A DNA stretch of 64,000 nt from Blautia sp. (GTDB lineage Bacteria; Bacillota; Clostridia; Lachnospirales; Lachnospiraceae). A program made the translations under genes and the position numbers. The notes beneath the pieces are model-generated. The model searched no databases, was not told the origin of the DNA, and worked only from the letters and a program-made list of their open reading frames with translations. How positions within the stretch are numbered: position 1 is the stretch's first letter; every line of letters starts with the position of its first letter. This document shows positions 44,093 through 64,000 of this stretch, in pieces. The stretch is taken from assembly GCA_017475035.1 (NCBI GenBank), contig JAFVGK010000033.1:49378-113377 (forward strand), in the 5' to 3' direction.

Positions 44093-44118
44093 ACGAGTTA
44101 TACGAGGGAGGTTTGAAA

Positions 44119-45198: not shown

Positions 45199-45206
45199 AC
45201 ATGATG

Positions 45207-45231
45207 AGCCCGGAGCAATCCGGGCTTTTTC
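45207..45231 (+). terminator. Terminator after the zinc-ribbon-like gene
   Basis: AGCCCGG and CCGGGCT with a six-base loop and five T's. Confidence 0.85.
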
Positions 45232-45408
45232 TTTGTCCGGGACGAACAAAACAGGGCGCCTGTCATAAAGGGTTTCCTTTGTGTCATTGTGAAAGATTTC
45301 TCCCGGTTAAGACGTAACCATATCAAACCGGGTGACTGATCTTTTTACTCCGGCATCAGCAAAAAGCCGAAATACGCCCGCCTGTCGCTGAGGAGCGACA
45401 CCATAAAA

Positions 45409-45437
45409 TTGACATCCTTAAGCGGAAAGCATATAAT
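45409..45437 (+). promoter_or_regulatory. Near-consensus promoter for the SGNH-WYL gene
   Basis: TTGACA (45409-45414) and TATAAT (45432-45437) with a 17-base spacer. It starts about 50 bases before the SGNH-WYL coding region and could also drive the downstream methyltransferase and helicase. Confidence 0.88.
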
Positions 45438-45487
45438 ATAATGTTGGAAAATTATACGCATTTGCGTTTATCGTGGAGGAAGCGACC

Positions 45488-47068: not shown

Positions 47069-47134
47069 ACCTGCGTTAAGGCTGTGAAGTGATGGAAAAC
47101 CTTACTTTTGGGGTATTTTATCGGGGTTTGAGGA

Positions 47135-47740
47135 ATGAATGATACGATACAATATTATGAAGACCATGCAAAGGAGTTTACAGCCAATACCATAGATGCC
47201 GATATGGAAGAACTCCGAAGACGCTTTCTGGCTCGTCTGCCGGAGGGAGCCCGCATTCTGGATTTCGGCTGCGGAAGCGGCAGAGACGCGAAGGCGTTTC
47301 GTGATCTGGCTTATGAAGTCACTGCGCTGGACGGTTCTGAAACTATGTGCCGTATTGCAGGCGATTTTACAGGACTGCCTGTGAGATGTGTGGATTTTCG
47401 CGCGTATTCTCCTGCACAGGGAGAACGATATGAGGGAATCTGGGCATGCGCCTCTCTGCTGCATCTGAAGAAGAAGGAGCTTCTTCCGGTGATGAGGGAA
47501 CTGGGAAAAGCCTTGGAGCCGGGCGGTATCCTGTATCTTTCTTTTAAGTATGGAGACTATGAGGGAGAACGAAACGGGAGATATTTCACGGATTTTACCC
47601 CGGAAGGGTTCTGTGAGTTCCTGAACAGGATTCCCGAATTCAGACAGGAGGAATACTGGGTGACCGGAGACGTCAGACCGGGACGGGGAGAGGAAAGATG
47701 GTTGAATATGATATTGAAGAAAACGCAGATTCCTACGTGA
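47135..47740 (+). CDS. Class I SAM-dependent methyltransferase
   Basis: A 201-residue Rossmann-fold methyltransferase with motif I ILDFGCGSGRDAKAF near residue 40 and GGILYLSFKYG later. There is no target-recognition domain or DNA-methylase NPPY/DPPY motif, so it is not a typical DNA methyltransferase and may act on a small molecule or protein. Its last 43 bp overlap the next gene's start, so the PLD-helicase is translated in step with it. Its co-occurrence with the helicase looks functional. Confidence 0.85.
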   Translation: MNDTIQYYEDHAKEFTANTIDADMEELRRRFLARLPEGARILDFGCGSGRDAKAFRDLAYEVTALDGSETMCRIAGDFTGLPVRCVDFRAYSPAQGERYEGIWACASLLHLKKKELLPVMRELGKALEPGGILYLSFKYGDYEGERNGRYFTDFTPEGFCEFLNRIPEFRQEEYWVTGDVRPGRGEERWLNMILKKTQIPT

Positions 47741-50178
47741 TCACCCCGACGGACGCCATGACCGGAGACCGCAGCCGCCGGATGCAGCTCTACTACCAGC
47801 TGATACAAAGCATTGCCGGGGCGAAGAAGATCGACATCATTGTTTCGTTTCTAATGGAGTCCGGCGTAAGGCTGCTTCTGAAGGAACTGAAAGGAGCCAT
47901 GGACCGGGGCGTGTCCGTACGGATCCTGACCGGAAATTATCTGGGGATCACACAGCCTTCGGCTCTGTATCTCATTAAGCATAAGCTGGGCGAACGCGTG
48001 GATCTCCGCTTCTATAACGAGAGTGAACGATCCTTTCATCCGAAAGCATATATTTTTCATTATGATCACCATAGTGAGATTTTTATCGGATCCTCCAATA
48101 TTTCCCGGAGCGCGCTGACCTCGGGAATTGAATGGAATTACCGATTCAGCAGCAGGAAAGATCCGGACAATTATGAGACATTCTTCCGGACATTTGAGGA
48201 TCTCTTTGAAAATCATTCGATCCGCATAGACGACGCTGAGCTGAAGAAGTATTCCAAAAGCTGGCACAGTCCGGCAGCTGCGAAGGATCTGGACCGGTAC
48301 GACGCGAGCGAAGAAGCTCAGGACCCGGATGCTAAGGTCAGGATGCTGTTTGAGCCCCGGGGAGCACAGATCGAAGCGCTTTGCGCTCTGGAGAATGCCA
48401 GGGCAGAAGGCGCAGTGAAAGGCCTGGTACAGGCTGCGACGGGGGTCGGAAAAACATATCTCGCCGCATTTGATTCCCGAAGGTATGAGCGAGTTCTGTT
48501 CGTAGCCCACAGGGAAGAGATTCTGAAACAGGCGGCAGTATCTTTTCGGAATGTCCGGGGATCTGAAGAATACGGATTTTTCGACGGAAAGACGAAATGT
48601 ACAGATAAACCGGTGATTTTTGCATCCGTAGCCACGCTGGGAAGCACGCAGTATCTGAACGATCGATTTTTCTCGCCGGATTACTTCCAATATATTGTAG
48701 TGGACGAATTTCATCACGTCGTGACGGATCAATACAGGCGAATCGTGGATTACTTCAAGCCGGAATTCCTGCTGGGCCTGACGGCAACGCCGGAACGGAT
48801 GGACGGGCGAAGCATTTACGAGATCTGTGATTATAACGTCCCGTATGAAATCTCGCTGAAAGAGGCGATCAACAAAGGGATGCTCGTGCCCTTTCATTAT
48901 TACGGAATCTATGATGACACGGATTATTCTGCCCTGCATGTGGTCCGGGGAAGATATGATGAGAAGGAATTAAATGAGAAATACATCGGGAATACGCGCC
49001 GCCATGAGATGATATACAAATACTACTGCAAATATGGATCGAGGCGGGCTCTGGGGTTTTGCTGCTCCAGGGAACATGCCGAGGAAATGGCACGGGATTT
49101 TTCGATGCGCGGAATACCGGCTGCGGCAGTTTACAGTGGAGAGCAGGGAGAATATGCACAGGAACGATCTTCCGCCATTCAAAAACTGAATGAAGGGACG
49201 ATACGGGCGATCTTTTCCGTGGATATGTTCAATGAAGGAGTTGACATTGCCTCCCTCGACATGGTGATGTTCCTGAGACCGACAGAATCGCCCGTCGTGT
49301 TCCTGCAGCAGCTGGGGCGCGGGCTGCGCACATTCCGCGGAAAACAGTATCTGACCGTACTGGATTTCATCGGCAACTATGAAAAAGCCGGGCGCGTCAG
49401 ATTCTATCTGACCGGGCAGACCGCTTCAGCCGGCGGCATGTCCTATTTACCGACATCTGACCAGTACCCGGATGACTGCCTGGTTGATTTCGATATGCGC
49501 CTGATTGACCTGTTTGAACAGATGGAGAAAAAGCACAGGCGTGTGCAGGATATGCTGCGGGATGAGTATTTTCGGATAAAGGAATTACTGGATCACCGGC
49601 CGACGCGGCTGGAGCTTTTTACCTATATGGACGCCGATATTTACCAGATGATAATCAGCCGGTCGAATATCAATCCATTCAAGCGGTATCTGGAATATCT
49701 GCATGATCTGAATGAACTGACACAGGATGAGACTGTGGTTTACCATAGCATCGGCAGGGAGTTTATCTCGTTGATTGAAACAACGAATATGTCAAAGGTT
49801 TATAAGATGCCGGTTCTGATGGCGTTTTACAACAACGGGCAGATGCGGATGGCAGTGACAGAAGAGGATTTGCTTGCAAGCTGGAAGGAATTCTTTGGAA
49901 ACGGAACGAACTGGAAGGATCTGGATCGCGGATTAACATATGAAAAATACCGGGCGATTTCTGACAAAGATCACGTCAGAAAGATCCTGCAGATGCCTGT
50001 CCATTTCCTGCAGGAATCCGGAAAGGGATTCTTCGTGCAGAAGGAAGGGTATGCACTGACTTTGAGGGAGGAGCTTGAGCAGGCAATACATGATCCGGTA
50101 TTTGTCGGACATGTGAAGGATGTCATTGATTACAGGACGATGGATTACTACCAGAGAAGATATGCGGAGCGGAGATAG
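47698..50178 (+). CDS. PLD-like nuclease / SF2 helicase fusion, second copy
   Basis: An 826-residue protein built like the one at 5668-8469. The PLD-like domain has His114-Lys116 in SFHPKAYIF and GSSNISRS. Walker A is ATGVGKT (residues 247-253). DEFHH, LTATPERMDG, FSVDMFNEGVDIASLDM and QLGRGLRTFRGKQ mark the SF2 core. The C-terminal 220 residues are helical and differ from the other copy's DUF3427-type end. The start lies within the methyltransferase gene; a strong ribosome-binding site (GAGAGGAAAG) is there. Likely DNA-directed and defence-related by family; function here unproven. Confidence 0.87.
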   Translation: MVEYDIEENADSYVITPTDAMTGDRSRRMQLYYQLIQSIAGAKKIDIIVSFLMESGVRLLLKELKGAMDRGVSVRILTGNYLGITQPSALYLIKHKLGERVDLRFYNESERSFHPKAYIFHYDHHSEIFIGSSNISRSALTSGIEWNYRFSSRKDPDNYETFFRTFEDLFENHSIRIDDAELKKYSKSWHSPAAAKDLDRYDASEEAQDPDAKVRMLFEPRGAQIEALCALENARAEGAVKGLVQAATGVGKTYLAAFDSRRYERVLFVAHREEILKQAAVSFRNVRGSEEYGFFDGKTKCTDKPVIFASVATLGSTQYLNDRFFSPDYFQYIVVDEFHHVVTDQYRRIVDYFKPEFLLGLTATPERMDGRSIYEICDYNVPYEISLKEAINKGMLVPFHYYGIYDDTDYSALHVVRGRYDEKELNEKYIGNTRRHEMIYKYYCKYGSRRALGFCCSREHAEEMARDFSMRGIPAAAVYSGEQGEYAQERSSAIQKLNEGTIRAIFSVDMFNEGVDIASLDMVMFLRPTESPVVFLQQLGRGLRTFRGKQYLTVLDFIGNYEKAGRVRFYLTGQTASAGGMSYLPTSDQYPDDCLVDFDMRLIDLFEQMEKKHRRVQDMLRDEYFRIKELLDHRPTRLELFTYMDADIYQMIISRSNINPFKRYLEYLHDLNELTQDETVVYHSIGREFISLIETTNMSKVYKMPVLMAFYNNGQMRMAVTEEDLLASWKEFFGNGTNWKDLDRGLTYEKYRAISDKDHVRKILQMPVHFLQESGKGFFVQKEGYALTLREELEQAIHDPVFVGHVKDVIDYRTMDYYQRRYAERR

Positions 50179-50253
50179 GGGCTTTTTTTTACAGACATAT
50201 CATCTCGCAGCATCGGTAACATAGTAATAAATCAAAGACTACAGGAGGCCTTC

Positions 50254-50430
50254 ATGTCATACCGTACCCGCCCTGATATATACGAGATGTTAGATACTCT
50301 TACTCTTGAGATGAAGGAAGAGCTTTTGGAATACCTGAAAGTCAATATTGCCGCTGCAAAGGCTGCTCCGAAGAAGACCTATCTGGAAGAACAGTGGGCG
50401 GAGATCAAACCTGATACGAACGGTTCATAA
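50254..50430 (+). CDS. Small acidic 58-residue protein
   Basis: A strong ribosome-binding site (ACAGGAGG) precedes an ATG that opens a clean 58-codon frame, MSYRTRPDIYEMLDTLTLEM and so on. It is acidic and helical, with a repeated Lys/Glu pattern, and resembles no family I know. It lies 75 bp after the helicase and 75 bp before the AlkZ-related gene, in the same orientation. Confidence 0.65.
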   Translation: MSYRTRPDIYEMLDTLTLEMKEELLEYLKVNIAAAKAAPKKTYLEEQWAEIKPDTNGS

Positions 50431-50505
50431 AAAGTGCGAAGATGCGGCGGGCAGTAGATTATGCGAAGGTTCAGCAGGCATTGAATATTTAACGGAGTGA
50501 TATAA

Positions 50506-51276
50506 GTGGCAAACGAAAACGGAACCTGGATCATGCGCGGGCTGTCATGGGACAATCCATACCGCATCCGTACGTGGCAGGAGCTTGTAAACTGGATAAA
50601 TGAAATAGGCTTCCTCCCACTGTTCGCAAATGAGGTGGAAGGGTTCTCGGCGGAAGAGCATGTATCCCCGGACTTCTGGTGGACGGGAAACCGGCAGCAG
50701 GATCCGTGGGAGTGGCGGGAGATCATAGCGGCGAGCCATCAGGTGGCTTACGGAAAATTTTTTGCCAATAAAGCCGGTTTTATCAGCGCAGAGTGGCTGC
50801 CGTACTTTGCAAACTTTCGCAGGAATGGCTATGACTTTGACTCACGGTGGGAGGATGGGCTTGCCAACAGGCGTGAGAAGGTGATCATGGACCTTCTCAC
50901 AGGAAAGGATGAAGATGGAGAGACAACCTTTCCGGATACTCAGATCCTTTCCACAGAGCTTAAGAAGATGGCCGGTTTTGGCAAGAACGGCGAGAAGAAC
51001 TATCCGGGGATTATCACCAGCCTGCAAATGCAGACATATCTGGTAATCACGGACTTTCACCGCCGGATAAATAAACGGGGAGAAGAGTATGGTATGGCGG
51101 TATCTGTTATGCTTCCCCCGGAGGCGATATGGGGATATGAGACGGTGACGCAAGCCTATTCGGAGAAGCCGGCAGAATCCTGGAAGAGAATAGTCAGCAG
51201 AGTGAAGGAACGATTCCCGGCAGCGGATGAAAAGGATATAATCCGGCTTATAGGCAAGAAATCTTCAGAGCCATAA
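50506..51276 (+). CDS. AlkZ-related protein
   Basis: A 256-residue soluble protein. HVSPDFWWTGNRQQDPWEWR and FISAEWLPYFANFRRNGYDF match a Firmicute family annotated as AlkZ-related (recalled, not searched). True AlkZ is a winged-helix glycosylase that unhooks DNA crosslinks, but these relatives lack proof of activity. The start codon is GTG at 50506 with ACGGAGTG upstream. It follows the helicase and the small protein, consistent with a DNA-related cluster. Confidence 0.7.
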   Translation: MANENGTWIMRGLSWDNPYRIRTWQELVNWINEIGFLPLFANEVEGFSAEEHVSPDFWWTGNRQQDPWEWREIIAASHQVAYGKFFANKAGFISAEWLPYFANFRRNGYDFDSRWEDGLANRREKVIMDLLTGKDEDGETTFPDTQILSTELKKMAGFGKNGEKNYPGIITSLQMQTYLVITDFHRRINKRGEEYGMAVSVMLPPEAIWGYETVTQAYSEKPAESWKRIVSRVKERFPAADEKDIIRLIGKKSSEP

Positions 51277-51436
51277 TGAGAATTGTTTCGTGAATTGGAT
51301 CCCTTTTGATGAGTGTATTAACAAAACATACGATACAAATGGCTTGCTATGCCTTTCTTAGCTATATAGGTTTCACTCACAATAACCCTTATAACGTATT
51401 ATAATAGCACGATTTGATCTGCCAGAGGAATATTTG

Positions 51437-51836
51437 ATGGCTAAGAATAAAGCAAAGAAATCAAATAGGAAAAAGCTATATTTTTGCCCAAAATGTTTTT
51501 TATTGCGTTCGTTCAGAACGTGAGTGCCCAAAATGCGGATGTAAAAAAGGCATGACAAGTGTTTGGGGGAAATCCCTATAGATTAAACAAATACCATATG
51601 AAGATTTGTTGAGAGTTGTTGAATACAGGAAAATAAATTGCTTTTCTTATAAGACATATGAAAAATGGTTGAAGATTGTTCCAAGACTTGGAGCGAGAAT
51701 CTCCAGGGATGAAAAGCCTTTATATGGATTAAAGAAGCCTCGGAATCAAACAGGCGGGTATGGTGGTATAGCAAATCATGCAGGCATATCTGGTTATGTC
51801 CATACCGTTCCAGGTGGTGGAATCTCACCAAGATAG
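51437..51836 (+). pseudogene. Broken zinc-ribbon protein gene
   Basis: Frame 1 gives MAKNKAKKSNRKKLYFCPKC with an ATG at 51437, then runs into a stop. In another frame the same gene continues as ERECPKCGCKKGMTSVWGKSL, a TAG, then KQIPYEDLLRVVEYRKINCF and on to GGGISPR. So one frameshift and one nonsense codon separate two Cys-x-x-Cys halves and a basic tail. It is a dead zinc-ribbon gene at the edge of the AT-rich island. Confidence 0.65.
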
Positions 51837-51936
51837 AATAAACTGTCAATATAGACCATGCAGTAGTTTTAAGAGTGTCGGTATTATTAGTATTTAGAAA
51901 AAACGAGTACTAAACTCATGAAATATGGAGGCGGTC

Positions 51937-54039
51937 ATGGAAAGATACATACAATCAGAGAAACTCTCAGAGGAAAACAGTGTAGCAAATGAGACAAATG
52001 ATGCTCGGGAAGAGATCAAGATGAAACTACGCCAATATTTTGATGGGAGGATCGTAAGAAAAGATCTAACAAAGGCAATCCGAGAGGGGGCAAATGTGCC
52101 AGTATATGTTCTTGAATATCTGCTTGGACAGTATTGCAACTCGGATGATGAAGAGGTAATCAGTGAAGGCATTGATAATGTGAAGTGCATTTTGAGGGAT
52201 AATTATGTGCGTCCGGATGAAGCACAGAAGATTTTGGCTTTGTTGAGAGAACGCGGTAACTACAAAGTTATTGACAGAATCACAGTAAAGCTGAATACAA
52301 AGGAAGACCGTTATGAGGCTACTTTTATGAATCTGGGGATCAAGAATATTCCAATCCATCCGGATTACGTAAAAAGCTATGACAGGCTTCTTTGTGGCGG
52401 TATCTGGTGTATCCTTCAGTTGGATTATGAGTTTATAGAGGAAGATAAGAAAAATACGCAACCTATTCGTGTGCGTAAGCTTACTCCGATCCAGATGCCT
52501 CATGTAGATATGGGAGAGGTCAAGAACGGTAGGAAAGCATTCACGAAGGAGGAATGGATTGATATTTTGCTTCGCTCTATTGGTATGGAGCCTGAGAAGT
52601 TCAGCGATAGAGTTAAGTGGCTGTTGATTGCGCGTATGATCCCACTGGTAGAGAACAACTTCAATCTTTGCGAGTTGGGTCCGAGATCTACCGGAAAGTC
52701 ATATATTTATGAACAGATTTCTCCTAACAGTATTCTGATTGGCGGTGGTCAGACTACGAGGGCAAACTTGTTTTATAATATGTCCAATAGCCAGGTGGGA
52801 TTGGTCGGTATGTGGGATGTGGTGGCATTTGATGAGGTTGCAGGTATTAAACCGAAGGAGAAGGATGTTATCCAGATAATGAAAGGATATATGGCATCCG
52901 GGCAGTTTTCTGTAGGTAAGGCTCAGGTACAGGCGAAGGCATCCATGGTATTTGTCGGAAATATTAATCAAAACGTTGAAACGTTGCTGAAGACATCTAG
53001 CTTATTTGATCCTTTCCCACCTGAAATGGGGCAGGATACTGCATTTTTGGATCGTTTCCATTGTTATATTCCGGGATGGGAGATTCCTAAATACAGACCT
53101 GAATCATTTACGAACGATTATGGATTTATTACAGATTATCTGGCAGAATTTTTGAAGGAGCTGAGAAAGGAAAATTACAGTGATATTGTTGATAAATATT
53201 TCCGTCTTGGAAAAAATCTGAATCAACGTGACACAATCGCTGTACGTAAGATGATGTCTGGCTTCATGAAATTGCTATATCCGGATGGAGAAGCAACAAA
53301 GGAGCAGGTGAAAGAGGTTATCGATATTTCTCTTGAACTTAGACGACGTGTCAAGGAGCAACTGAAGAAGATTGGTGGAATGGAATTTTATGATGTAAAT
53401 TTCTCATATTTTGATAATGAGACTCTTGAACAAAACTATGTGACTGTTCCTGAACAAGGAGGTGGGAAGCTGATTCCTGAGGGAATAGGTAAGCCGGGAT
53501 GTGTATATACTGTGTCGAAGAATAAGACCGGGATGATAGGCTGTTATAGATTGGAGACACAAATGATGCCAGGGAATGGTAAGTTGACCTTGACGGGATT
53601 GGGTACTAGTTCTGAGATTAAGCAGGGTCCGAATACTGCGTTTAACTATATCAAAGCGAACAGTAATGCTATATCACGTCAAATCAGTACTACTATGAAA
53701 GATTATATCGTTAGCTATCAAGATATGCAAGGCATTGGAATGACATCAGATCTTGCTTTGACAACTCTTATTGCTTTGTGTTCGGCTGCACTTAATAAAA
53801 CTCCACTCAATAGTTTAGCAATTCTGGGAGATATTACCATTGGCGGAACTTTAATCAAGGTGGAAAATCTTTCAAACACACTTCAAGTGTGTCTAGATAG
53901 TGGTGCAAAAAAGGTGTTGTTGCCGATGACATCCGCAGCAGATTTGGGAAGTGTTCCTGCTGATCTTGTAGGCGCGTTCAGTTTGATCTTTTTTTCTTCT
54001 CCAGAAGAAGCGATATTCAAAGCTCTTGGAGTGGAATAA
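51937..54039 (+). CDS. brxL: BREX protein BrxL (Lon-like AAA protein)
   Basis: A 700-residue cytoplasmic AAA+ protein of the Lon-related BREX type. Walker A GPRSTGKS is at residues 248-255 and Walker B WDVVAFDEVAG has Asp299-Glu300. The C-terminal Lon-protease-like domain keeps a plausible Ser604 (GMTSDLALTTLIALCSAAL) and Lys641 (GGTLIKVENL) dyad. BrxL of type I BREX forms barrel-shaped hexamers on DNA and is needed for phage exclusion. ATG 51937 follows ATGGAGG. It leads the operon. Other BREX hallmark genes (pglX, pglZ, brxC) are not in the window. Confidence 0.9.
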   Translation: MERYIQSEKLSEENSVANETNDAREEIKMKLRQYFDGRIVRKDLTKAIREGANVPVYVLEYLLGQYCNSDDEEVISEGIDNVKCILRDNYVRPDEAQKILALLRERGNYKVIDRITVKLNTKEDRYEATFMNLGIKNIPIHPDYVKSYDRLLCGGIWCILQLDYEFIEEDKKNTQPIRVRKLTPIQMPHVDMGEVKNGRKAFTKEEWIDILLRSIGMEPEKFSDRVKWLLIARMIPLVENNFNLCELGPRSTGKSYIYEQISPNSILIGGGQTTRANLFYNMSNSQVGLVGMWDVVAFDEVAGIKPKEKDVIQIMKGYMASGQFSVGKAQVQAKASMVFVGNINQNVETLLKTSSLFDPFPPEMGQDTAFLDRFHCYIPGWEIPKYRPESFTNDYGFITDYLAEFLKELRKENYSDIVDKYFRLGKNLNQRDTIAVRKMMSGFMKLLYPDGEATKEQVKEVIDISLELRRRVKEQLKKIGGMEFYDVNFSYFDNETLEQNYVTVPEQGGGKLIPEGIGKPGCVYTVSKNKTGMIGCYRLETQMMPGNGKLTLTGLGTSSEIKQGPNTAFNYIKANSNAISRQISTTMKDYIVSYQDMQGIGMTSDLALTTLIALCSAALNKTPLNSLAILGDITIGGTLIKVENLSNTLQVCLDSGAKKVLLPMTSAADLGSVPADLVGAFSLIFFSSPEEAIFKALGVE

Positions 54040-54191
54040 ATAAAGATATGGGTATGTGACGTATTACCCAGAACTCAGTAATATCATGGGTTTTGAGGGA
54101 TATATCAATGGAGTGGTTGAAACTACTACAATTGGGCTAAGAGAAAAAGTATCAATAAAGACTGATGAACATTGTAGGGAGGATGTTGGTT

Positions 54192-57100
54192 ATGGAATAT
54201 TACTTGACAGGCAAAGGGCAGGAAGCCAGTGAGATGGCCGATAAAGTCATTACCAATGTGCTGCAGGAATGTTCCCGGCAATTATATGGGTTTACCAGAT
54301 CAGAATTTGATAGCATTATAGAATACGACATTATGAACATTCTTGCATTTTATTACTCAGAGATGAATGCTCAGCAAAAGATGTTTATTCTGGAGGCAGT
54401 ACAGAATGAATTCAATCTTGCGGATTTAGAAGACACAATTGAAAACCTAGTCATGTTTGCAGATGACGAACTCTATATCCCCCTTTCATGTAAGCTGATG
54501 GATCAACTTGGCGATAGCCGAGTAACTATTATTGTGTATCAGACCTTGTTTAAGTACAGTACTGATATGGTTATTGAAAATTGGGATCAAGATAATTCTT
54601 ATTCGAATTATCTTGTGCTGATGAACGCAGCGTATTTTGATGCACTTGCAAACAAGCTTCATGTTAGAGATAGTTGTATAGCTTCTATGGAAGAATATTA
54701 TGGCTATGAAAGCTTTGATGATTTTACGGAGTCGCTTTACGAAAAACATCTAGACGATCTTAGCTGGGATGAAGATGTTGATTTGGATCTTCTTGATGAG
54801 ATGATCTCTGAAAGTAAACGGAATTCTTCTTTTGAAAAAGGAATAAAAGAAGAGTTTTTTGACGTAATCGAGGTTATCAAAAATATCAGAAAGGAACACA
54901 CTCAAGTTTCTCTGGTGAAGGAAGAAAAAGATGGATTTGAGCGTATTGTTCAAAAGACGGGTATAAGAGAACGGAAATGTATTAATATACAGGGCTTTGA
55001 ATGCCATTTTTGTGAAGCAAAAGCAAGTGATGAGGAATATGTAATTGTGTTTCAGCACGAAACACGTATCCATGAAATTATAGATGACGAAAACGCATGG
55101 GCTGGATTTCAAAGAGAACTATATAAAGAAGACATCCGACAGAATACAAGTCGAACAGTGGTTTATATAGTTTATATTCTTGATAATGACTCTGACAATA
55201 TTCCAATTCAGGTTATAGAGAGTAATAAGACCTATGGCAGGAAGTATGTATTCACTGAAGATGAAACAATCACTTTTATCAATGGTATTGTTAAAACTTC
55301 AAATGAAGACATAGGTAGTATCTCTCCTGTACAGGAATGGGATAGAATTCTCCGAGAAGAACATTTGACAGCTTGTCTTACCGAACCTTATACAGCCAAA
55401 AAGGTCGAAGGCTATTTATCAGGAAGTCGTTTTGATGCGGATTATGCTCAGGAAGATGATTATTCTTTTTCTATGAAAGAGTCTGTTGTACCACAAGTAA
55501 AATGGGTAAAGTCTCTGGATACTACAGGATTCCGCGGCTTTTGCTTTGCTGATAAGACTATGCAATTCGGTCAGATTAATCTTTTTTATGGTGCAAATGG
55601 ATCCGGAAAAACATCTGTGTTGGAAGCTATTGAATATGCATTGACAGCAGAGGTTCGTCGTATTAAAGACTTTAAAGTGAAACTTCCTTCAGGAATGTAT
55701 CCAGAGATCAGTGTTTATGACCGAGAAGCTGGAATCCATACTTTCACGCCAGGATTTTCGAAAAAGAACTGCAAGGAAATTGAAAGAGTATGGTATGGTG
55801 TTCCGATTGGAAGAACAAAGACGACTTTGAATGATAATTTTAACAGATTTAATGCTTTTGATTCCGAGGCGGCGTATAAGTTTATTCATGAATCTGATAA
55901 TAGTGAGGACAGTTTTTCCACGATGTTTGGCAATTTGATGTTTGGAGAGACTGTTGTTGATCATGAGAAAAAATGGCAACGTTTTAAGAAAGCTTTTAAT
56001 GATCGCTATACAGAACTGAGAAGTGAATTGAGCGAAGCTAGAAGCATGGTTGAATACTATGAACAAAGTTTAGCTCAAAAAAGTGATGATTCAAAATCAG
56101 ACGAGATTGAACGCGGCATAGAAGATTTGAGATTGATCATACAAGTAAAATTGCCCAATTCGCCCTTTGATCGGTATCCGAAAGTTCTTGAAGAGATGGC
56201 AATTGTTCGCAAGTATATAGAAACACTGTTGTCAAATAATTTCGAAACAGAGACTTTTGCGACTATTGCTGCTAGAATAGCTGAGATCAAAAGAAATAAT
56301 CTACTTTATGCAAAACAGAAGAGGAAAAAAGCAGAGCAGATTACACAATTAACTGAGGATAATGGAACACAGAAGCAAAAGATTTTTGCCGAGCGTGAAA
56401 AACAGACTGGGATACGGCAGCGTTTAGAACGAGTAAATACAGATATTAGGAATTGGTCAATAGTACAGGATGTTTTGGGCCATGAAGACACGATTAAGTT
56501 AGCAATGGATCTCGTAGATGAACTGACAGAAGTGGAACGGGAACTATATTTTATTTCCCAAATTGAACAGCGTACGGCAGTGATTAATTTCCTGAAACTG
56601 GATAGTTATGATACTCTTTCTTCTTCAAAGAGACGGCAGTATGAGAATGAACTGGAAAAAGCAAGAACTCAGAAGCAACAGCTTGAAAACCAGTATAATG
56701 AAGCAAAGAAAGCTTTTGGTGAAAGAGAACAGCAGGCAATGGAACTTAGAAAGATAGGTAAAATGCTTTTGATCGATGCAAAATGTCCGCTGTGTGGCCA
56801 TGAGTATAGTAGTACTCAGCAGCTTATTGATATTATTGATAATGCGGTCGTAGTGGATGATAGCATGGATGTTCTTATCTCCAAAATACAGAAAGTTGCT
56901 CGCAGAATCATGGATCTGGAGAAGATGCTTGATAGAGAGAAGCTAATTGCAAAAGCAAAAGCTGAACTTATGATGCTGAAAGATAAAGTTCCTATGATCA
57001 AAAAATGTGGTACTGATTATAAACGACTTTATGCTTATCTTTCCTCAAAGGTTGAGAAAGAGAAGAGAAAGGATGAAATAATTGAGCAGCAAACTGCCCT

Positions 57101-58574
57101 TGATCAACAAGGTTTTTCAATAAGAAATATAACTGCCTGCAAAGAATATAAGACGACAGATCCTACATATTTGGAATATATGAAGAGTGGAACAGGACCT
57201 TATACAGATTTTCTGCAAAACCGGCTTCAAAAGATACAGATGGAACTGGCCTTATCTGAATCTGCCATTTCTGGATTTGAGCAGAAAATTCAAGAGAATG
57301 AACAGGCTGAAGAATTGCTAAGGATAGAAATACAACAATTAGATGCTAAAACTGAAGCACTTGACGCAGATGTAAATCGTGATAATGAGCAAGCTCTTGA
57401 AAATATCAAAACCAAATTTGAACTATCTGATGAAATGATTTTGGGAGAATGGGTAAAGAGATATCATGCAGTATTTGACAAATGTGAGTTGGAAGTCGAA
57501 AGGTTGAAATCGCAGAGTTTAGTTGCTTTTGAAAGGAAGTCATTGTCAGAGTATAAAGCGACTATTAAACGTAAAACCCCAATAGTAGAAAGATGTGCAA
57601 GAGCAGTTCAGACATTTGAAAAAATGCCTTCCCTCAGTTCTTTTGTTGAGCATGGTATACGTAGTAACATCCAACATATCAGTAAATTCTTCAAGTGGAT
57701 GCACCATTCGGGAGAGTTTGAACGGTTGGATATTGATGAGAATGGTATTTATGCTGTAAGGGGACTCGATAATCAAGAGGTAAGGACGTATGAGATGAGT
57801 ACCGGACAACGTTCTACGATCGCAATGGCTGTAATGTTTGCCTTACATATGGCAGCACCGGATGCACCTCAGTTCCTTCTTTTGGACGAGCCGCTTGCTA
57901 CCATGGATGATACCCAGGTATTAAATGTCCTGGATATTTTGAAATCTATGGCATATCAAAACACACAGATCTTTTTTACCACCGCGAATGGTATCATGAT
58001 TGATTTGTTTAAAAAGTGTTTCAAAGATACGCCCTTTGATTATAAGGAGTACGAATTTATAAAACGCGTAAACCGTCCATCAGAAATAAAAGAATCCAGT
58101 GTAAATGACACAAAAACTATAGAAGAACTTACCTTGGAGGATTTGACTTTGGATTTCCACCAGTTTGCACAAATACGTGAGATGCTGCGACGTAATCAAG
58201 AGAAATTGGTTGCAAAAGAAGACTGGGAAAGCTTAGATGCAAATGGAGATGCTGAAGGAGAATTATCGGACAGTCAGAGTTGCTCGAATACGGAGAATGA
58301 ATCTACTGATAATTTCTTCTCGATCTTGACGGTGGAGGAAAGAAAACTGCTGTTGATTCTATTAAAAGATGATGGTCGAAGCTCATCTCAGTTGAAAAAG
58401 GCACTCAGCGTATATCCAACATTCCAAATGATGTTTGAGACTATTAACGAAAAGGCTGTTGATTTCTTTGGAGAAACGGTTGTCGAAAATGATGATGAAC
58501 TTCCCTGGCTTGATGATGAATACAAAAAAGAACTTGGACTGCAGTATGCCTTATTTGCTACAATCAGTGAATAA
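54192..58574 (+). CDS. Rad50/SMC-like ATPase with C-terminal TerB-C-like domain
   Basis: A 1460-residue cytoplasmic protein. About 460 N-terminal residues are unrecognised and helical. The ABC-type head has Walker A GANGSGKT at 467-474. Long coiled coils surround a zinc-hook Cys865-Pro-Leu-Cys868. The signature is STGQRS near 1203 and Walker B is FLLLDEP with Asp1232-Glu1233. A linker at about 1310-1340 contains QIREMLRRNQEKLVAKEDWE, and a TerB-C-like domain (INEKAVDFFGETVV, then EYKKELGLQ) ends the protein. This hybrid of a DNA-tethering ATPase and a Ter-system domain suggests sensing or processing of DNA. ATG 54192 has GGGAGG nine bases before. Confidence 0.87.
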   Translation: MEYYLTGKGQEASEMADKVITNVLQECSRQLYGFTRSEFDSIIEYDIMNILAFYYSEMNAQQKMFILEAVQNEFNLADLEDTIENLVMFADDELYIPLSCKLMDQLGDSRVTIIVYQTLFKYSTDMVIENWDQDNSYSNYLVLMNAAYFDALANKLHVRDSCIASMEEYYGYESFDDFTESLYEKHLDDLSWDEDVDLDLLDEMISESKRNSSFEKGIKEEFFDVIEVIKNIRKEHTQVSLVKEEKDGFERIVQKTGIRERKCINIQGFECHFCEAKASDEEYVIVFQHETRIHEIIDDENAWAGFQRELYKEDIRQNTSRTVVYIVYILDNDSDNIPIQVIESNKTYGRKYVFTEDETITFINGIVKTSNEDIGSISPVQEWDRILREEHLTACLTEPYTAKKVEGYLSGSRFDADYAQEDDYSFSMKESVVPQVKWVKSLDTTGFRGFCFADKTMQFGQINLFYGANGSGKTSVLEAIEYALTAEVRRIKDFKVKLPSGMYPEISVYDREAGIHTFTPGFSKKNCKEIERVWYGVPIGRTKTTLNDNFNRFNAFDSEAAYKFIHESDNSEDSFSTMFGNLMFGETVVDHEKKWQRFKKAFNDRYTELRSELSEARSMVEYYEQSLAQKSDDSKSDEIERGIEDLRLIIQVKLPNSPFDRYPKVLEEMAIVRKYIETLLSNNFETETFATIAARIAEIKRNNLLYAKQKRKKAEQITQLTEDNGTQKQKIFAEREKQTGIRQRLERVNTDIRNWSIVQDVLGHEDTIKLAMDLVDELTEVERELYFISQIEQRTAVINFLKLDSYDTLSSSKRRQYENELEKARTQKQQLENQYNEAKKAFGEREQQAMELRKIGKMLLIDAKCPLCGHEYSSTQQLIDIIDNAVVVDDSMDVLISKIQKVARRIMDLEKMLDREKLIAKAKAELMMLKDKVPMIKKCGTDYKRLYAYLSSKVEKEKRKDEIIEQQTALDQQGFSIRNITACKEYKTTDPTYLEYMKSGTGPYTDFLQNRLQKIQMELALSESAISGFEQKIQENEQAEELLRIEIQQLDAKTEALDADVNRDNEQALENIKTKFELSDEMILGEWVKRYHAVFDKCELEVERLKSQSLVAFERKSLSEYKATIKRKTPIVERCARAVQTFEKMPSLSSFVEHGIRSNIQHISKFFKWMHHSGEFERLDIDENGIYAVRGLDNQEVRTYEMSTGQRSTIAMAVMFALHMAAPDAPQFLLLDEPLATMDDTQVLNVLDILKSMAYQNTQIFFTTANGIMIDLFKKCFKDTPFDYKEYEFIKRVNRPSEIKESSVNDTKTIEELTLEDLTLDFHQFAQIREMLRRNQEKLVAKEDWESLDANGDAEGELSDSQSCSNTENESTDNFFSILTVEERKLLLILLKDDGRSSSQLKKALSVYPTFQMMFETINEKAVDFFGETVVENDDELPWLDDEYKKELGLQYALFATISE

Positions 58575-58593
58575 AAGAAATGGAGGGTGATTC

Positions 58594-59925
58594 ATGGAAA
58601 AGAGAATTCCAAAAAAAACATATCGGAATATTATGAATTCTCTTGGAGGAGGTACTGTACCAAGGGAGGGTCTGGGTTATATCGCAGTAGGCAGAGAACA
58701 GGAGATAGATTCTTTCATTCGTGATACTGAGATTATTCAGGATGGCGGGGCAACATTTCGGTTTGTTGTTGGTGATTATGGTAGCGGAAAAACTTTTTTA
58801 TTACAGACAATCAAAGAATATTGTGTGAAAAATGATTTTATTGTAGCGGAGGTTGATTTATCTCCGGATAGAAGTCTAATCGGGAACTCGACGAGGAAGA
58901 AGGGGTTAGCAACTTATCGCGAGCTTATGTCAAATGTTTCAAATAAGGTGAACCAAACTGGTGCAGCTCTTGCGAAAGTACTTCAATCATGGGTAAATAC
59001 GATATTTGTTCGTGCCGCAAAAGAGTTTTCGAAGAATCCCAGAGGTGAGACGAACTTAGAGCGGATTGCAGAAACATTAATGTCTCAGGATTGCGTAAAG
59101 TTACAGTCTTTGACATATGGGTTTGAATTCTCGAAAGCTCTTAAACTATTTTGGATATCAAGTAGAACTTCTGATTTAAACGAGAAACTAACAGGACAAG
59201 AATCAGTTCTTCGATGGTTCAGAGGAGATTTTCATAACAATCAGGAATCTAAAAAAGCATTAGGGATAAACGCAACCGTTCAAGATGATAACTGGTTTGA
59301 TTACATCATTCTGTGGGCACAGTTCTTTGTTATGGCTGGATATAAAGGCTTTATTATTCTTATTGATGAGCTTGCTTATATCTGCAATACAGCAAATAGT
59401 ATTACAAGACAGAACAATTATGAAAAAATATTAATGATGTATAATTCTGCCCTTCAAGGGAAAGCGGAGTATCTTGGTATTATTATGGGAGGAATACCAA
59501 AGAGTATCTATGATAAGAAACGTGGCATTTTTAGTTACGAGGCCATGAGATCCAGGCTTTCTACAGGAACTTATCAGGATCCAAGCATCGTTAATATGAT
59601 GACTCCTATCATTAAAGTGCGTCCCTTGACAAAAGAGGAAATGTTTGTTCTTCTGGAAAAGTTAGCAGATATTCATTCTAAGTTGTATGAGTATAGAATG
59701 ATAATCACTGAATCTGAAATAGTAGATTTTGTTAAATTGGCATACTTAAAGCGAGAAACCTGTTTTATTACGCCGCGTACTATGATTCGTGATTTTATTC
59801 AGATTTTGGATGTAAAAAAGCAAAATCCTAACAAAGAAATACATGAGATTCTTGCGGCTTACAAATTTGCTGTTGATGAAGAAACTAGCTATGAAGAAAC
59901 TGGTGATGAGGGACATAGTGAATGA
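58594..59925 (+). CDS. BrxD/DUF2791-type ATP-binding protein, copy 1
   Basis: A 443-residue P-loop ATPase of the BREX BrxD (DUF2791) type. Walker A GDYGSGKT is at residues 60-67 and Walker B FIILIDELAYI has Asp258-Glu259. The conserved N-terminal block GGGTVPREGLGYIAVGRE matches this family. ATG has TGGAGGGTGA upstream and follows the Rad50-like gene by 19 bp. Its stop overlaps the next start by ATGA. It probably works with the Rad50-like protein or BrxL to handle DNA. Confidence 0.87.
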   Translation: MEKRIPKKTYRNIMNSLGGGTVPREGLGYIAVGREQEIDSFIRDTEIIQDGGATFRFVVGDYGSGKTFLLQTIKEYCVKNDFIVAEVDLSPDRSLIGNSTRKKGLATYRELMSNVSNKVNQTGAALAKVLQSWVNTIFVRAAKEFSKNPRGETNLERIAETLMSQDCVKLQSLTYGFEFSKALKLFWISSRTSDLNEKLTGQESVLRWFRGDFHNNQESKKALGINATVQDDNWFDYIILWAQFFVMAGYKGFIILIDELAYICNTANSITRQNNYEKILMMYNSALQGKAEYLGIIMGGIPKSIYDKKRGIFSYEAMRSRLSTGTYQDPSIVNMMTPIIKVRPLTKEEMFVLLEKLADIHSKLYEYRMIITESEIVDFVKLAYLKRETCFITPRTMIRDFIQILDVKKQNPNKEIHEILAAYKFAVDEETSYEETGDEGHSE

Positions 59926-61583
59926 AGATAAGGGATCTGAAAATATCTGCCAGAGCAAGGGGGTGTTTGATCAATGCAGGGTATTCAACAGTTGAAGAAA
60001 TTGTAAATCTTCCAGATAATGGTTTATCAGGAATCCATAATCTCAATGGTAAATGTGCAAAGGAGATCAAGGATGTAATTACTGAATACAATAGGGATAT
60101 AGAGCCAGAAACTGACTTTACATTGGATCTTCATAAAGTAGCAAAGATTCGAGAAATTCTCCGTCACAATCAGGAAAAGCTTGTTGCAAGAGATGACTGG
60201 GATATCATGGATGAATATGAAGACTATGAAGGATTATCCGTGAAACGTCATAGTGTCCAGGAAACACAGATTAAAATATATCGGAATATTATGCATTCCC
60301 TCGGTGGAGGAACTGTCCCAAGGGGAGGTTTGGGATATATTACAGTTGTACGTGCACAAGAAATAGATTCTCTCCTTCGTGATAATGAGAGTATTCAGAA
60401 CGGTGGAGCAACATTCAAATTTGTTGTCGGTGACCATGGTAGTGGAAAAACATTTTTACTGCAAATGATCAAAGAAAACTACATAAAAAATGGTTTTATT
60501 GTCACTGAAGTGGATTTATCTTCAGACAGAAACCTAATAGGTGATGCGACAAATAAGAAGGGATTGGCAACTTATCGCGAGCTTATGTCAAATGTTTCAA
60601 ATAAGGTGAACCAAACTGGTGCAGCTCTTGCGAAAGTAATTGAATCATGGGTAAAAACGTTATTTGTTCGTGCCGCAAAAGAGTTAACGAAGAATCCCAG
60701 AGGTGAGACGAACTTAGAGCGGATTGCAGAAACATTAATGCTTCATGATTGTACAAAGTTACAATCTTTGGCATATGGGTTTGAATTTTCGCAGGCTCTT
60801 AAACTTTTTTGGAAAGCAAGTAGAACATCTGATCTAAACAAGAAGCTGACTTTGCAGGAATCTGTGCTTCATTGGTTATTGGGAGGCTATTATACTAACC
60901 AAGAATCAAAGGAGGCATTAGGGATAAACGTAACTGTTCAAGATGATAACTGGTTTGATTACATCATTCTGTGGGCACAGTTCTTTGTAATGGCTGGCTA
61001 TAAAGGGTTTATTATTCTTATTGATGAGCTTGCTTATATCTGCAATACAGCAAACAGTATTATAAGAAAGATCAATTATGAAAAATTATTAATGATGTAT
61101 AATTCTGTTCTTCAAGGGAAAGCGGAATATCTTGGTATTATTATGGGAGGAATACCAAAGAATATCTATGATAAGAAACGTGGAATTTTTAGTAATGAGG
61201 CTATGAGATCCAAGCTTTCTACAGAAACTTTTCAGGATCCAGGCATCGTCAATATGATGACTTCTTTCATTAAGGTGAGTCCTTTAACTAAAGAGGAAAT
61301 GTTTGTTCTTCTGGAAAAGATGGCAGAAATTCATTCTCGGTTATATTATTATAGTATAATAATCACAGAATTTGAAATAATAGATTTTATTAAATTAGCA
61401 TACTTAAAGCGAGAAACCTCTTTTATTACGCCACGTACTTTGATTCGTGATTTTATTCAGTTATTGGATGTAAAAAAGCAAAATCCGGACAAAGAAATAC
61501 ATGAGATTCTGGCTGCTTACAAATTTATTGTTGATGAAGAAACCAGCTATGAAGAAACTGGTGATGAAGGACATAATGAATGA
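59922..61583 (+). CDS. Fusion of RNA-polymerase alpha-CTD-like module and BrxD/DUF2791 ATPase, copy 2
   Basis: A 553-residue protein. Residues 1-55 (MKIRDLKISARARGCLINAG, then LNGKCAKEIKDVI) resemble an alpha-subunit C-terminal domain (helix-hairpin-helix). Residues 60-90 carry IREILRHNQEKLVARDDWD, which matches the linker near the end of the Rad50-like protein. From about residue 115 it is a second BrxD-like ATPase, strongly similar to copy 1. Walker A is GDHGSGKT (residues 170-177) and Walker B FIILIDELAYI. The N-terminus is near-identical to that of the next gene. So it arose by tandem duplication with loss of the TerB-C part. ATGA overlaps on both sides indicate coupled translation. Confidence 0.85.
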   Translation: MKIRDLKISARARGCLINAGYSTVEEIVNLPDNGLSGIHNLNGKCAKEIKDVITEYNRDIEPETDFTLDLHKVAKIREILRHNQEKLVARDDWDIMDEYEDYEGLSVKRHSVQETQIKIYRNIMHSLGGGTVPRGGLGYITVVRAQEIDSLLRDNESIQNGGATFKFVVGDHGSGKTFLLQMIKENYIKNGFIVTEVDLSSDRNLIGDATNKKGLATYRELMSNVSNKVNQTGAALAKVIESWVKTLFVRAAKELTKNPRGETNLERIAETLMLHDCTKLQSLAYGFEFSQALKLFWKASRTSDLNKKLTLQESVLHWLLGGYYTNQESKEALGINVTVQDDNWFDYIILWAQFFVMAGYKGFIILIDELAYICNTANSIIRKINYEKLLMMYNSVLQGKAEYLGIIMGGIPKNIYDKKRGIFSNEAMRSKLSTETFQDPGIVNMMTSFIKVSPLTKEEMFVLLEKMAEIHSRLYYYSIIITEFEIIDFIKLAYLKRETSFITPRTLIRDFIQLLDVKKQNPDKEIHEILAAYKFIVDEETSYEETGDEGHNE

Positions 61584-63565
61584 AGATAAGAGATCTAAAA
61601 ATATCTGCCAGAGCAAGAGGATGTTTGATCAATGCAGGTTATACAACAATTGAAGAAATTGTTCATCTTACAGATGATGATCTATTAGAAATTCGTAATC
61701 TTAACGGTAAATGTGTAAAGGAAATCCGGAATATAATTACTGAATGTTTGGTTAAATCATTTGAGGATCTCGGACTCTCAGTTGGTACCTATATTTGTCT
61801 GAGAAAAGCAGGAATAAAAAGAATAGAAGAACTCTGTGATCGAACTGCTGAAGACATAATTAAAATCAAAAACATTGGTAGAAAAAGACTAGAGGAAATA
61901 GTTGCAAAACTAAAGGAATATCATCTGAAACTTAAAAGTGTTGTTGATGACGAAAATGAAGAAAAATCCCAGAGTTATATGGATGAAACTATAGAGAAAA
62001 TGGAATTATCTGTAAGATCCTGTAATTGCTTAATGCGTGCAGGAATCTACACGTTGGGACAACTATGTGAACTAACTTCGGAAGAAATGATGAAGATACG
62101 TTATCTGGATCTAAAAATGCTAGAAGAAATACTTCGAAAAATGAAGGAATATGGGGCAGGGTTAAAAGAACCAAAAGATGAAACTCAAAAGAATGTATTA
62201 AAATGGTATCGAAAAGCAGCGGAGCAGGGAAACACATTTGCACAAAAAATTCTTGGAGAAATGTATTATTTTGGAAACGGAGTTGCCCAAGATTATGCAG
62301 AAGCATTAAGATGGTTTAAACTAGCGGCGGAACAGGGAAGTGTAGATGCTCAAGAGAATCTAGGTGATATGTATTACTACGGATATGGAGTCGATAAGGA
62401 TTATACAGAAGCTGAAAGATGGTATTGGAAAGCAGCCGAACAGGGAGATGCCACTGCGAAAGATAGACTTGGCTGTAGGTATTATCATGGAGATAGAGTT
62501 TCCCAAGATTATACAGAAGCAGTAAAATGGTTCCGTAAAGCGGCGAAACAAGGGTGTGGGTCTGCGCAAAAAAATCTTGGTGGTATGTATTATTATGGGT
62601 ATGGAGTTTCCCAAGATTATACAAAAGCAGTAAAATGGTTCCGTAAAGCGGCAGAGCAAGGATATGCGTCTGCGCAAAATAATCTTGGTGATATGTATTG
62701 TAATGGATTTGGAGTTATCCAAGATTATACAGAAGCAGTAAAATGGTTCCGTAAAGCAGCTGAACAGGGAAGTGTAGATGCTCAAGAGAATCTAGGTGAT
62801 ATGTATTACTATGGACATGGAGTCGAAAAGGATTATATAGAAGCGGAAAGATGTTATCGGAAAGCGGCGAAGGAAGGGAATGCCGCTACGAAATGTAGAC
62901 TTGGTTGTAGGTATTATCATGGAGATAGAGTTTCCCAGAATTATACAGAAGCAGTAAAATGGTTCCGTAAAGCGGCGTACAAAGGGAATGAATCTGCGCA
63001 ATGTATGCTTGGTTTAATGTATATGAAAGGGTGCGGAGTTCCTCAAGATGATGCAGAAGCAGTAAAATGGTTCCGTAGGGCAGTGGATTATGGAAATCCG
63101 TTAGGTCAGGTGGTACTTGGATGTTGTTATCTATATGGATTTGGAGTCGACATAGATTACTTGGAAGCAGAAAAATGGTTCCGGAAAGCGGCGGAACAGG
63201 GAAATGCAAACGCTCAATATTATCTTGGAAACATTTATATTTCTGGTAATGGAGTTGCCCAGGATTATACAGAAGCAGTAAAATGGTACCGAAAAGCAGC
63301 AGAACAAGAGAACGTAGCTGCTCAAAATAATCTTGGAGTTATGTATGAGAGAGGATATGGAGTTTCTCAAGATTACACAGAAGCAGTAAAATGGTATCAA
63401 AAAGCAGCAGAGCAGGGAGATGCAATAGCACAATACAACTTTGGATTAATGTATGAAAATGGTATAGGTGTAGAAAAGGATATTGAACAGGCGAAAAGGT
63501 GGTTTATACTCGCAGCAAGTCAAGGAAATGAAGATGCAGAGAAGAGCCTGAAAGTGATAACATAG
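61580..63565 (+). CDS. Alpha-CTD-like repeats plus twelve Sel1 repeats
   Basis: A 661-residue soluble protein without signal peptide. Three helix-hairpin-helix modules like the RNA-polymerase alpha CTD lie at about residues 1-55, 57-112 and 132-190. The third (MELSVRSCNCLMRAGI, then EMMKIRYL) is closest to true RpoA. From about residue 215, twelve 36-residue Sel1/TPR-like repeats follow (motif AxxxLGxMYYxGxGVxxDYxEA). Units 2-3 and 6-7 are near-identical. Sel1 arrays bind proteins, and the alpha-CTD-like part could contact DNA or transcription factors. It is translationally coupled to the BrxD copy 2. No such combination is known to me. Confidence 0.82.
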   Translation: MKIRDLKISARARGCLINAGYTTIEEIVHLTDDDLLEIRNLNGKCVKEIRNIITECLVKSFEDLGLSVGTYICLRKAGIKRIEELCDRTAEDIIKIKNIGRKRLEEIVAKLKEYHLKLKSVVDDENEEKSQSYMDETIEKMELSVRSCNCLMRAGIYTLGQLCELTSEEMMKIRYLDLKMLEEILRKMKEYGAGLKEPKDETQKNVLKWYRKAAEQGNTFAQKILGEMYYFGNGVAQDYAEALRWFKLAAEQGSVDAQENLGDMYYYGYGVDKDYTEAERWYWKAAEQGDATAKDRLGCRYYHGDRVSQDYTEAVKWFRKAAKQGCGSAQKNLGGMYYYGYGVSQDYTKAVKWFRKAAEQGYASAQNNLGDMYCNGFGVIQDYTEAVKWFRKAAEQGSVDAQENLGDMYYYGHGVEKDYIEAERCYRKAAKEGNAATKCRLGCRYYHGDRVSQNYTEAVKWFRKAAYKGNESAQCMLGLMYMKGCGVPQDDAEAVKWFRRAVDYGNPLGQVVLGCCYLYGFGVDIDYLEAEKWFRKAAEQGNANAQYYLGNIYISGNGVAQDYTEAVKWYRKAAEQENVAAQNNLGVMYERGYGVSQDYTEAVKWYQKAAEQGDAIAQYNFGLMYENGIGVEKDIEQAKRWFILAASQGNEDAEKSLKVIT

Positions 63566-63616
63566 GAGGAAAAATCTTAAAAATATAGGCTTAAACACAT
63601 AAAAAGCAGAAGAATT

Positions 63617-63865
63617 ATGAATAACGAGAAAATCATCAGCAATATGAATACTTTCATTTTCCGACTGAATGAACAATTGGGAAAATGGCTTGCAGAAAAG
63701 CTACCAAAGATTACAGAGAACTGGTGGCAGGAACTTGTTCTGGATAATCTCAGCACTCTGCAGAAGGATACATTTCAGAATAATGATATCCTTGATCTAA
63801 AGGGACTTGACCTGGCTGCACTTCTTCGGGTTGTAGACAGGAATTGGTTTGTCATTACAATCTGA
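63617..63865 (+). CDS. Swt1/HEPN-like protein, short
   Basis: An 82-residue frame. MNTFIFRLNEQLGKWLAEKL then WWQELVLDNLSTLQKDTFQ, LDLAALLRVVDRNWFVI match the start of Swt1-family HEPN domains seen in BREX and Ter-type defence operons. The RNase-type RxxxxH motif is not in this frame, and the frame stops at TGA right after FVITI. A shifted frame continues NLNFEQFSTYYF to TGA at 63950, so a frameshift or natural truncation is possible. It follows the Sel1 gene by 51 bp. Confidence 0.55.
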   Translation: MNNEKIISNMNTFIFRLNEQLGKWLAEKLPKITENWWQELVLDNLSTLQKDTFQNNDILDLKGLDLAALLRVVDRNWFVITI

Positions 63866-64000
63866 ATTTTGAACAATTTTCTACGTATTATTTTTGGCGA
63901 GATAAGAAACAGCTCTTTCTAAGCAGATTAGACAATGTTAACATGATATGAGCAGTTATTAAATGCAAATAATTATACGTTATAATATTGACTTATTCGC
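63866..64000. other. Window end, AT-rich, no gene seen
   Basis: No start codon with a ribosome-binding site is visible. The AT-rich TATAATATTGACTTATTC at the very end could include a promoter for the next island gene, but this cannot be judged. Confidence 0.4.

Follow-up and report, generated by a model that had tools for sequence, protein, structure and literature searches.

Near the end of a Blautia sp. contig (JAFVGK010000033.1, assembly GCA_017475035.1), a gene for the BREX protein BrxL stands on the same strand as genes of the kind found in Shango systems, and the question raised by this island is what system its genes form together. The window, meaning the whole stretch of 64,000 nucleotides analyzed here, is the last 64 kb of that contig (113,377 bp), which stops at window position 64000. 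We give about an even chance to the reading that the island is a hybrid anti-phage module, whose core pair, a Rad50-like ATPase with a TerB_C tail (Rad50-TerB_C) and an SngB-type ATPase, works with BrxL. The observations behind it are the domains, the homologies, and a conserved gene order that keeps the pair together and next to BrxL. The island is a run of five genes, listed here with the tail of the ATPase on a line of its own:

51925..54039, + strand: BrxL, full-length type-1 form with a Lon-like C-terminal domain (PADLOC 1084 bits, TIGR02653 1048 bits)
54165..58574, + strand: P0001, 1469 amino acids (aa), Rad50/LmuB-like zinc-hook ATPase with an SngA-type TerB_C tail (Pfam and motifs)
58104..58571, + strand: TerB_C tail of this ATPase, linker helix and core (profile match, residues 1314-1457)
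58594..59925, + strand: P0003, SngB copy 1, AAA+ ATPase of the BrxC/BrxD family (PADLOC SngB 449.6 bits, PF10923 409 bits)
59922..61583, + strand: P0004, alpha-CTD, a segment resembling the TerB_C linker, and SngB copy 2 (RNA_pol_A_CTD 41.4 bits, PF10923 369 bits)
61580..63565, + strand: P0005, alpha-CTD and Sel1 repeats (RNA_pol_A_CTD 159.9 bits in 3 stretches, Sel1 425 bits in 13 stretches)

The gaps between these genes are 125, 19, -4, and -4 bp in gene order, followed by 51 bp to a HEPN_Swt1 frame, in agreement with a first-pass annotation, made from the letters alone, that had described overlapping or near-contiguous genes on one strand. That annotation had also named BrxL, a Rad50-like ATPase ending in a TerB-C-like domain, and an alpha-CTD/Sel1 protein, all of which were recovered by the profile searches. 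GC content falls from 50-52% in the two genes upstream to 41% in BrxL and further to 35-39% in the frames that follow, a drop that marks the island as foreign-looking.

The unit seems to be the pair itself, since the Rad50-TerB_C gene is directly followed by SngB in all five loci whose next gene is visible (the window, L005, L006, G1427, and G1430). Only the first codons of SngB are visible in L005 and L006, where the start reads as SngB of the same type, and G1427 and G1430 are near-identical and counted as one lineage, which leaves about four independent lineages of the pair. In G1427 and G1430, which belong to the same family as the window's genome but to another genus, the module lies inside a type-1 BREX operon, between pglZ and brxL, in the order BrxC, PglX, PglX-like, an open reading frame (ORF) of 475 aa (291 aa in G1430), PglZ, Rad50-TerB_C, SngB, and BrxL, with 10-11 bp between SngB and BrxL. 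PADLOC names BrxA and BrxB (upstream of BrxC), BrxC, two PglX, PglZ, SngB, and BrxL in G1427; the operon of G1430 was compared for BrxC, PglX, PglZ, and BrxL. The pair therefore adjoins BrxL in two genera, the window order being BrxL, ATPase, SngB. The first-pass annotation had also proposed to compare the neighborhoods of BrxL homologs. Eight other BrxL loci of the window's own genus gave no SngB or ATPase match in the fetched stretch, several of these loci being cut. The same holds for 12 BrxL loci on viral contigs, again with several cut.

In L005 (positions 1-1500 of the metagenome-assembled genome (MAG) RUI421), a 132-aa ORF matching TerY_C at 24.8 bits (cut-off 28.4) and a transglutaminase ORF lie 5' of the ATPase, which suggests that the pair may also join TerY-type operons. 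L006, a short contig, belongs to a MAG of a different phylum, to which it may have been misassigned in binning. Close homologs of the ATPase are rare, with two loci in genome_contigs. In overlapping samples, the ATPase was found in the window's genome only among 299 genomes of the family, in 2 of 64 genomes of the genus (the other, G698, being partial), in 2 of 391 of the class (the other partial), and in 4 of 392 of the order (two full-length and one distant), each count including the window's genome. The distant or partial matches in G441, which has no SngB match, G698, and G1143 were left out of the relatives. No ATPase match was found in phages, plasmids gave only partial SMC matches (27-32% identity to the ATPase), and viral contigs held no confirmed relative of the ATPase or of the G1427 SngB; a phage or plasmid link of the module was rejected on these searches. 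The distant Rad50-like ATPase of G1143 (L174) lies near a TnsD/TniQ gene and is perhaps cargo of a Tn7-like element.

The ATPase P0001 matches SMC_N (63.7 bits), AAA_23 (52.4 bits), and TerB_C (28.9 bits, cut-off 26.3) in Pfam, and its Walker A (GANGSGKT), zinc hook (CPLCG), signature (MSTGQR), and Walker B (LLLDEP) motifs are kept in all five aligned sequences, P0001 included. Its tail matches a 54-member profile of SngA tails at 51.8 bits (E 2.3e-17, filters off), and the same profile gives 50.8 bits in L005, 25.2 in L006, 58.3 in G1427, and 57.3 in G1430, E-values referring to searches of 5 sequences. Aligning three of the tails with the 54 SngA tails by hhalign gives E 1.9e-13 and a probability of 98% in a single comparison. 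Judged by its sequence, the tail is homologous to that of SngA. P0001 also sits in the SngA position, immediately 5' of SngB. Among the 59 SngB loci counted from the 60 of our survey (L037 gave no SngB frame, and some, such as L088-L090, are near-identical), a TerB_C gene lies upstream of SngB in 54, three of them at only 10-12 bits, so that the Rad50-TerB_C ATPase holds the slot usually taken by SngA. A PDB profile search with the N-terminal 441 aa of P0001 gave no credible match (best E 0.021).

The surveyed SngA genes show some front-end variation of their own. L045 (8669-9625) encodes a 318-aa SngA with YjbR and TerB_C and without TerB_N, possibly another swap of the SngA front half; in L088 (4069-5985, IMG/VR 2744054524), a serine-resolvase N-terminus runs in frame into the TerB/TerB_C portion of SngA, unlike L089, which has a full TerB_N-type gene; and in L139 (155-2821, G084), TerB_N and TerB_C are preceded in frame by a radical-SAM domain.

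The two smaller ATPases had been annotated as BrxD/DUF2791 proteins. The family assignment stands, with PF10923 scores of 409 and 369 bits, and BrxD was rejected: the NCBIfam BrxD model gives 139.1 and 115.2 bits against a cut-off of 350, and PADLOC scores both proteins higher as SngB (PDLC03959, 449.6 bits for copy 1 and 398.3 for copy 2) than as BrxD (138.7 and 114 bits). Both are thus SngB in the sense in which PADLOC defines Shango. In a tree of 61 SngB sequences, those of the window, G1427, and G1430 share a clade (support 1.0) that a long stem separates from the SngBs of Shango, and we read the window ATPases as a divergent branch of Shango SngB. The two copies are 82% identical to each other, and a tandem duplication spans them:

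58615..60087, + strand: duplication copy 1, SngB and the start of the alpha-CTD gene (86.2% identity to copy 2 over 1473 nt)
60273..61745, + strand: duplication copy 2 (86.2% identity to 58615..60087 over 1473 nt)

The linker segment of P0004 matches residues 1326-1377 of P0001 with a score of 131, compared to a maximum of 57 in 300 shuffles; comparison of the segment with four canonical SngAs gave no outstanding score. An adaptor piece of the ATPase is thus fused to the second SngB, which suggests contact between ATPase and SngB.

The third partner, BrxL, scores 1048 bits with the NCBIfam model TIGR02653, well over its cut-off of 628, as expected of a type-1 BREX BrxL. It aligns with the solved BrxL 8emc from residue 29 through the end and keeps its Walker motifs (Walker A GPRSTGKS, plus FDEV). 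The ATG at 51937 is its probable start, showing by eye a better-looking ribosome-binding site. Compared with L074, the ratio of nonsynonymous to synonymous change (dN/dS) is about 0.05, with dS near saturation, and the window BrxL has a branch of 0.147-0.177, about 2.5 times longer than those of its BREX-embedded sisters (0.055-0.069). By these signs, it reads as a working gene that evolves faster than these sisters, and such a long branch would be expected from a change of partner. In the BrxL tree, it groups with BrxLs of core-bearing BREX loci from its own genus (G679 and G682, support 1.0), while the G1427 BrxL is placed elsewhere (support 0.918). Two different BrxL lineages therefore stand beside the pair, which points to repeated origins of the pairing or to an exchange of BrxL.

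The same kinship is an argument for another explanation, namely that BrxL is a relic of a decayed type-1 BREX and lies by chance next to a Rad50-TerB_C/SngB system that is independent of it. The BrxLs of G679 and G682, whose loci have PglZ upstream, share 83% identity with that of the window, L005 shows other upstream neighbors, and a BrxL with only a 40-aa PglX scrap, and no PglZ or BrxC match in the fetched stretch, occurs in G698 (L075, 1275-1394 and 8981-11044). However, the window BrxL is intact with a low dN/dS, the pair is directly followed by BrxL within one operon in G1427 and G1430, and no scrap of a lost core turned up in the window by tblastn, for which one sequence each of PglZ, PglX, and BrxC was used. 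We consider a relic unlikely.

By a second explanation, to which we give a slim chance, the island would be a divergent version of an ordinary Shango, with the gene for its SngC helicase located beyond the point where the contig stops. PADLOC matches the two ATPases best as SngB, a TerB_C gene lies immediately upstream, and the contig runs on for 435 bp after the Sel1 gene, which leaves the downstream side of the island unreadable. SngC lies next to SngB in 54 of the 59 surveyed loci in first views, and wider views add L026 and L096, though not L014. Nevertheless, no SngC was found in the window or around the modules of G1427 and G1430 (30 kb examined for each), and the best match in the assembled genome (59.7 bits) is at the level of a generic helicase and has counterparts in 13 of 14 control genomes. 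TerB_N was not detected in P0001 by Pfam at E up to 1, so that the TerB_N plus TerB_C architecture of a Shango SngA is lacking. A TerB_N-region profile, built from mid-sized members of the 54 TerB_C genes, matched 47 of these same 54 genes when taken with more upstream sequence, and Pfam found TerB_N above cut-off in two of four of the seven unmatched genes. TerB_N being usual in SngA, its absence from the window ATPase is a real departure. Both window SngB copies also lack the C-terminal F..F tail found in 48 of the 54 SngC-neighboring SngBs, a weak argument as it is missing in the other six too (two of them short or truncated-looking frames). We had considered this tail as a marker of SngC dependence, which held in the first 32 loci and was weakened by these later exceptions.

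Equally improbable, in our estimate, is that we see in the window the margin of a complete type-1 BREX into which the module was inserted, the BREX core having fallen into an unassembled gap. G1427 and G1430 have such an operon, the assembly is 93.6% complete, and the contig stops here. Yet the gene order differs, with BrxL first in the window, and the assembled genome, itself incomplete, gave no match to a PglZ model that detects the PglZ of a genome in the same genus at 182 bits. In the window there is no PglZ (tblastn, one PglZ) and no match to BrxC or PglX at E 1e-4 (tblastn, one of each; the rest of the genome was not searched for these two), so that PglZ, and BrxC with PglX beside BrxL, by which BREX is recognized, are not found there, as the first-pass annotation had noted for pglZ and pglX. 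PF10923 was dropped as a genome-wide test for BrxC, since a type-1 BrxC that we scanned gave no match.

A Lamassu/ABC-3C- or MADS-like system around the ATPase, in which for instance the Sel1 protein or a HEPN protein encoded downstream would be the effector of abortive infection, is highly improbable: the ATPase has mad3 (79.6 bits) and LmuB (78.2 bits) as its top PADLOC matches, and a CPxCG hook as described in many LmuB (PMC10586767), and one of its three close relatives weakly matches an ABC-3C middle component, but the Walker B glutamate is kept, no LmuA and, besides mad3, only a weak mad8 (13.7-18.3 bits, in the ATPase and the SngBs) are among the PADLOC matches listed for eight window proteins, the HEPN frame is sub-threshold, and the 30 kb of sequence examined around each of the G1427 and G1430 modules hold no match to the Sel1 gene.

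Several observations also weigh against the hybrid module itself. P0001 was missed by an SngA profile built from 8 sequences and run with default filters, Pfam TerB_C was seen in two of three close relatives and missed in G1427/G1430 at E 0.01, and the TerB_C match is weak in single-sequence searches and clear only with the unfiltered 54-member profile. L005 has no BrxL upstream of the ATPase, its downstream side being cut off, and the ATPase has no match in G153, a genome from the genus to which G1427 belongs. The longest BrxL branch (0.398) belongs to L067, an ordinary BREX without the module, so that branch length is weak evidence. The 125 bp between BrxL and the ATPase, together with the GC contents of 41% and 37%, would allow a separate arrival, and the window's assembly has an estimated contamination of 5%.

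If BrxL and the pair do form a hybrid module, we infer the following working from their homologies, a defense function included. The zinc-hook Rad50-like ATPase would sense phage DNA ends or replication intermediates, Rad50-like LmuB being regarded as a likely sensor (PMC10586767). Its TerB_C tail, the same as that of SngA in Shango, would dock the SngB ATPase, which in turn would load or activate a DNA-encircling motor; as a relative of BrxD, which is described as ORC/Cdc6-like and proposed to load BrxHI (PMC12839542), SngB is probably a loader of the ORC/Cdc6 type. The motor would be BrxL, an MCM-like ring replacing the helicase (SngC or BrxHI) that usually accompanies SngB or BrxD; one SngC scored 405 bits against PADLOC BrxHI. 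The core of BrxL has been assigned to the MCM family (PMC12839542), and the protein is reported to be MCM-like and to assemble on DNA with ATP, possibly disrupting the initiation of phage replication with other BREX factors (PMC10164562). The BrxL ring would then stall phage DNA replication. The alpha-CTD modules of the second SngB and the Sel1 protein probably provide contacts to DNA or RNA polymerase, and scaffolding. The sensor and adaptor parts of this scheme rest on homology, and the link between loader and ring on the adjacency of SngB and BrxL in two genera.

In the window, the module appears to work without a methylation core; in G1427 and G1430, it lies within a type-1 BREX that has its methyltransferase. 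A broader view, which is possible though we lean against it, is that of a methylation-independent, BREX-derived immune machine mirroring origin licensing, in which a Rad50-type sensor and a TerB_C adaptor would bring an ORC/Cdc6-like SngB loader that places the MCM-like BrxL ring onto invading DNA, TerB_C being a general plug by which sensors are swapped on BrxD/SngB-type loaders across Shango and BREX. The module bears on how BREX blocks phage replication, on the role of BrxL, and on that of TerB domains in defense. As it brings BrxL together with a Rad50-type sensor and a loader of the BrxD/SngB type, seemingly in the absence of the methylation core, it would offer a small and testable setting for what BrxL does and, as a swap made by nature, a case for examining whether TerB_C couples sensor to loader.

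The remaining features lie at the edges of the island. The repeats of P0005 have a register of 108 nt, and beyond them lies one further frame:

63617..63865, + strand: HEPN_Swt1-like frame, 82 aa, partial or degraded (Pfam 18.6 bits, sub-threshold, cut-off 27.5)

Its place in the cluster is doubtful, and the Swt1/HEPN-like item of the first-pass annotation does not hold at the Pfam cut-off; a search of the whole assembled genome for HEPN_Swt1 gave no match, though no control matched either. A scan for promoters and terminators gave numbers of sites similar to those in shuffled sequence, and an Rfam scan of window positions 44000-64000 gave no match. The intergenic stretch 5' of BrxL (51277-51924) shows by eye what appear to be degenerate zinc-ribbon-like ORF pieces. 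Further upstream lie a protein with PLD and helicase parts (47698-50178, GC 50%), matched by PADLOC as a type IV restriction enzyme (334 bits), and a 531-aa ORF (45473-47068) with a GDSL/SGNH-like N-terminus and a WYL/WCX C-terminus.

How, then, does the island compare with known systems? Lamassu/ABC-3C systems share the Rad50-like coiled-coil ATPase and, frequently, the zinc hook of LmuB, whereas the window ATPase has a TerB_C tail and the Walker B glutamate that LmuB generally lacks (PMC10586767), and the LmuA that accompanies LmuB in Lamassu is not among the matches listed for the window proteins. Membership in ABC-3C was rejected, the single relative that matched being sub-threshold (19.5 bits, cut-off 27.3). 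MADS, compared by PADLOC names only, would call for other Mad proteins beside mad3. Type-2 BREX, with BrxD, BrxHI, and PglW, resembles the island in its BrxD-like ATPase and in the alpha-CTD-like domain described in PglW (PMC12839542), and a stretch of 76 residues in P0005 is matched by PADLOC PglW (21.8 bits); it differs in that the BrxD cut-off is not reached and whole PglW, PglX, PglZ, and BrxHI are absent among the eight window proteins scanned.

The closest resemblances are to type-1 BREX and to Shango. The window BrxL has the full Lon-like type-1 form and the module of G1427 and G1430 lies inside a type-1 operon, but the window has no PglZ, PglX, or BrxC match, and the Rad50-TerB_C gene and SngB are additions. 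Shango, described as SngABC, a TerB-like protein, an ATPase, and a DEAD/DEAH helicase (PMC10250203), shares SngB and the SngA-type TerB_C tail in the gene immediately upstream; in the window, a Rad50-like ATPase replaces the TerB_N half of SngA, SngC is not seen, and BrxL is present instead. In a 2026 survey of BREX, BrxL is given to types 1 and 4 and the role of BrxD is specific to type 2, and the words "TerB" and "Shango" are absent from its main text (PMC12839542). The first-pass remark that no described type combines such BREX and Ter/Shango parts agrees with the open-access literature (supplements not covered), where we found no description of the combination; of the check by PADLOC and domain searches that it had proposed, BrxL and TerB_C came out as named and the ATPases as SngB instead of BrxD. 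Lacking the PglZ of BREX and the TerB_N of Shango, and with SngC not seen, the island is best filed as a variant that joins parts of BREX and Shango and belongs to neither.

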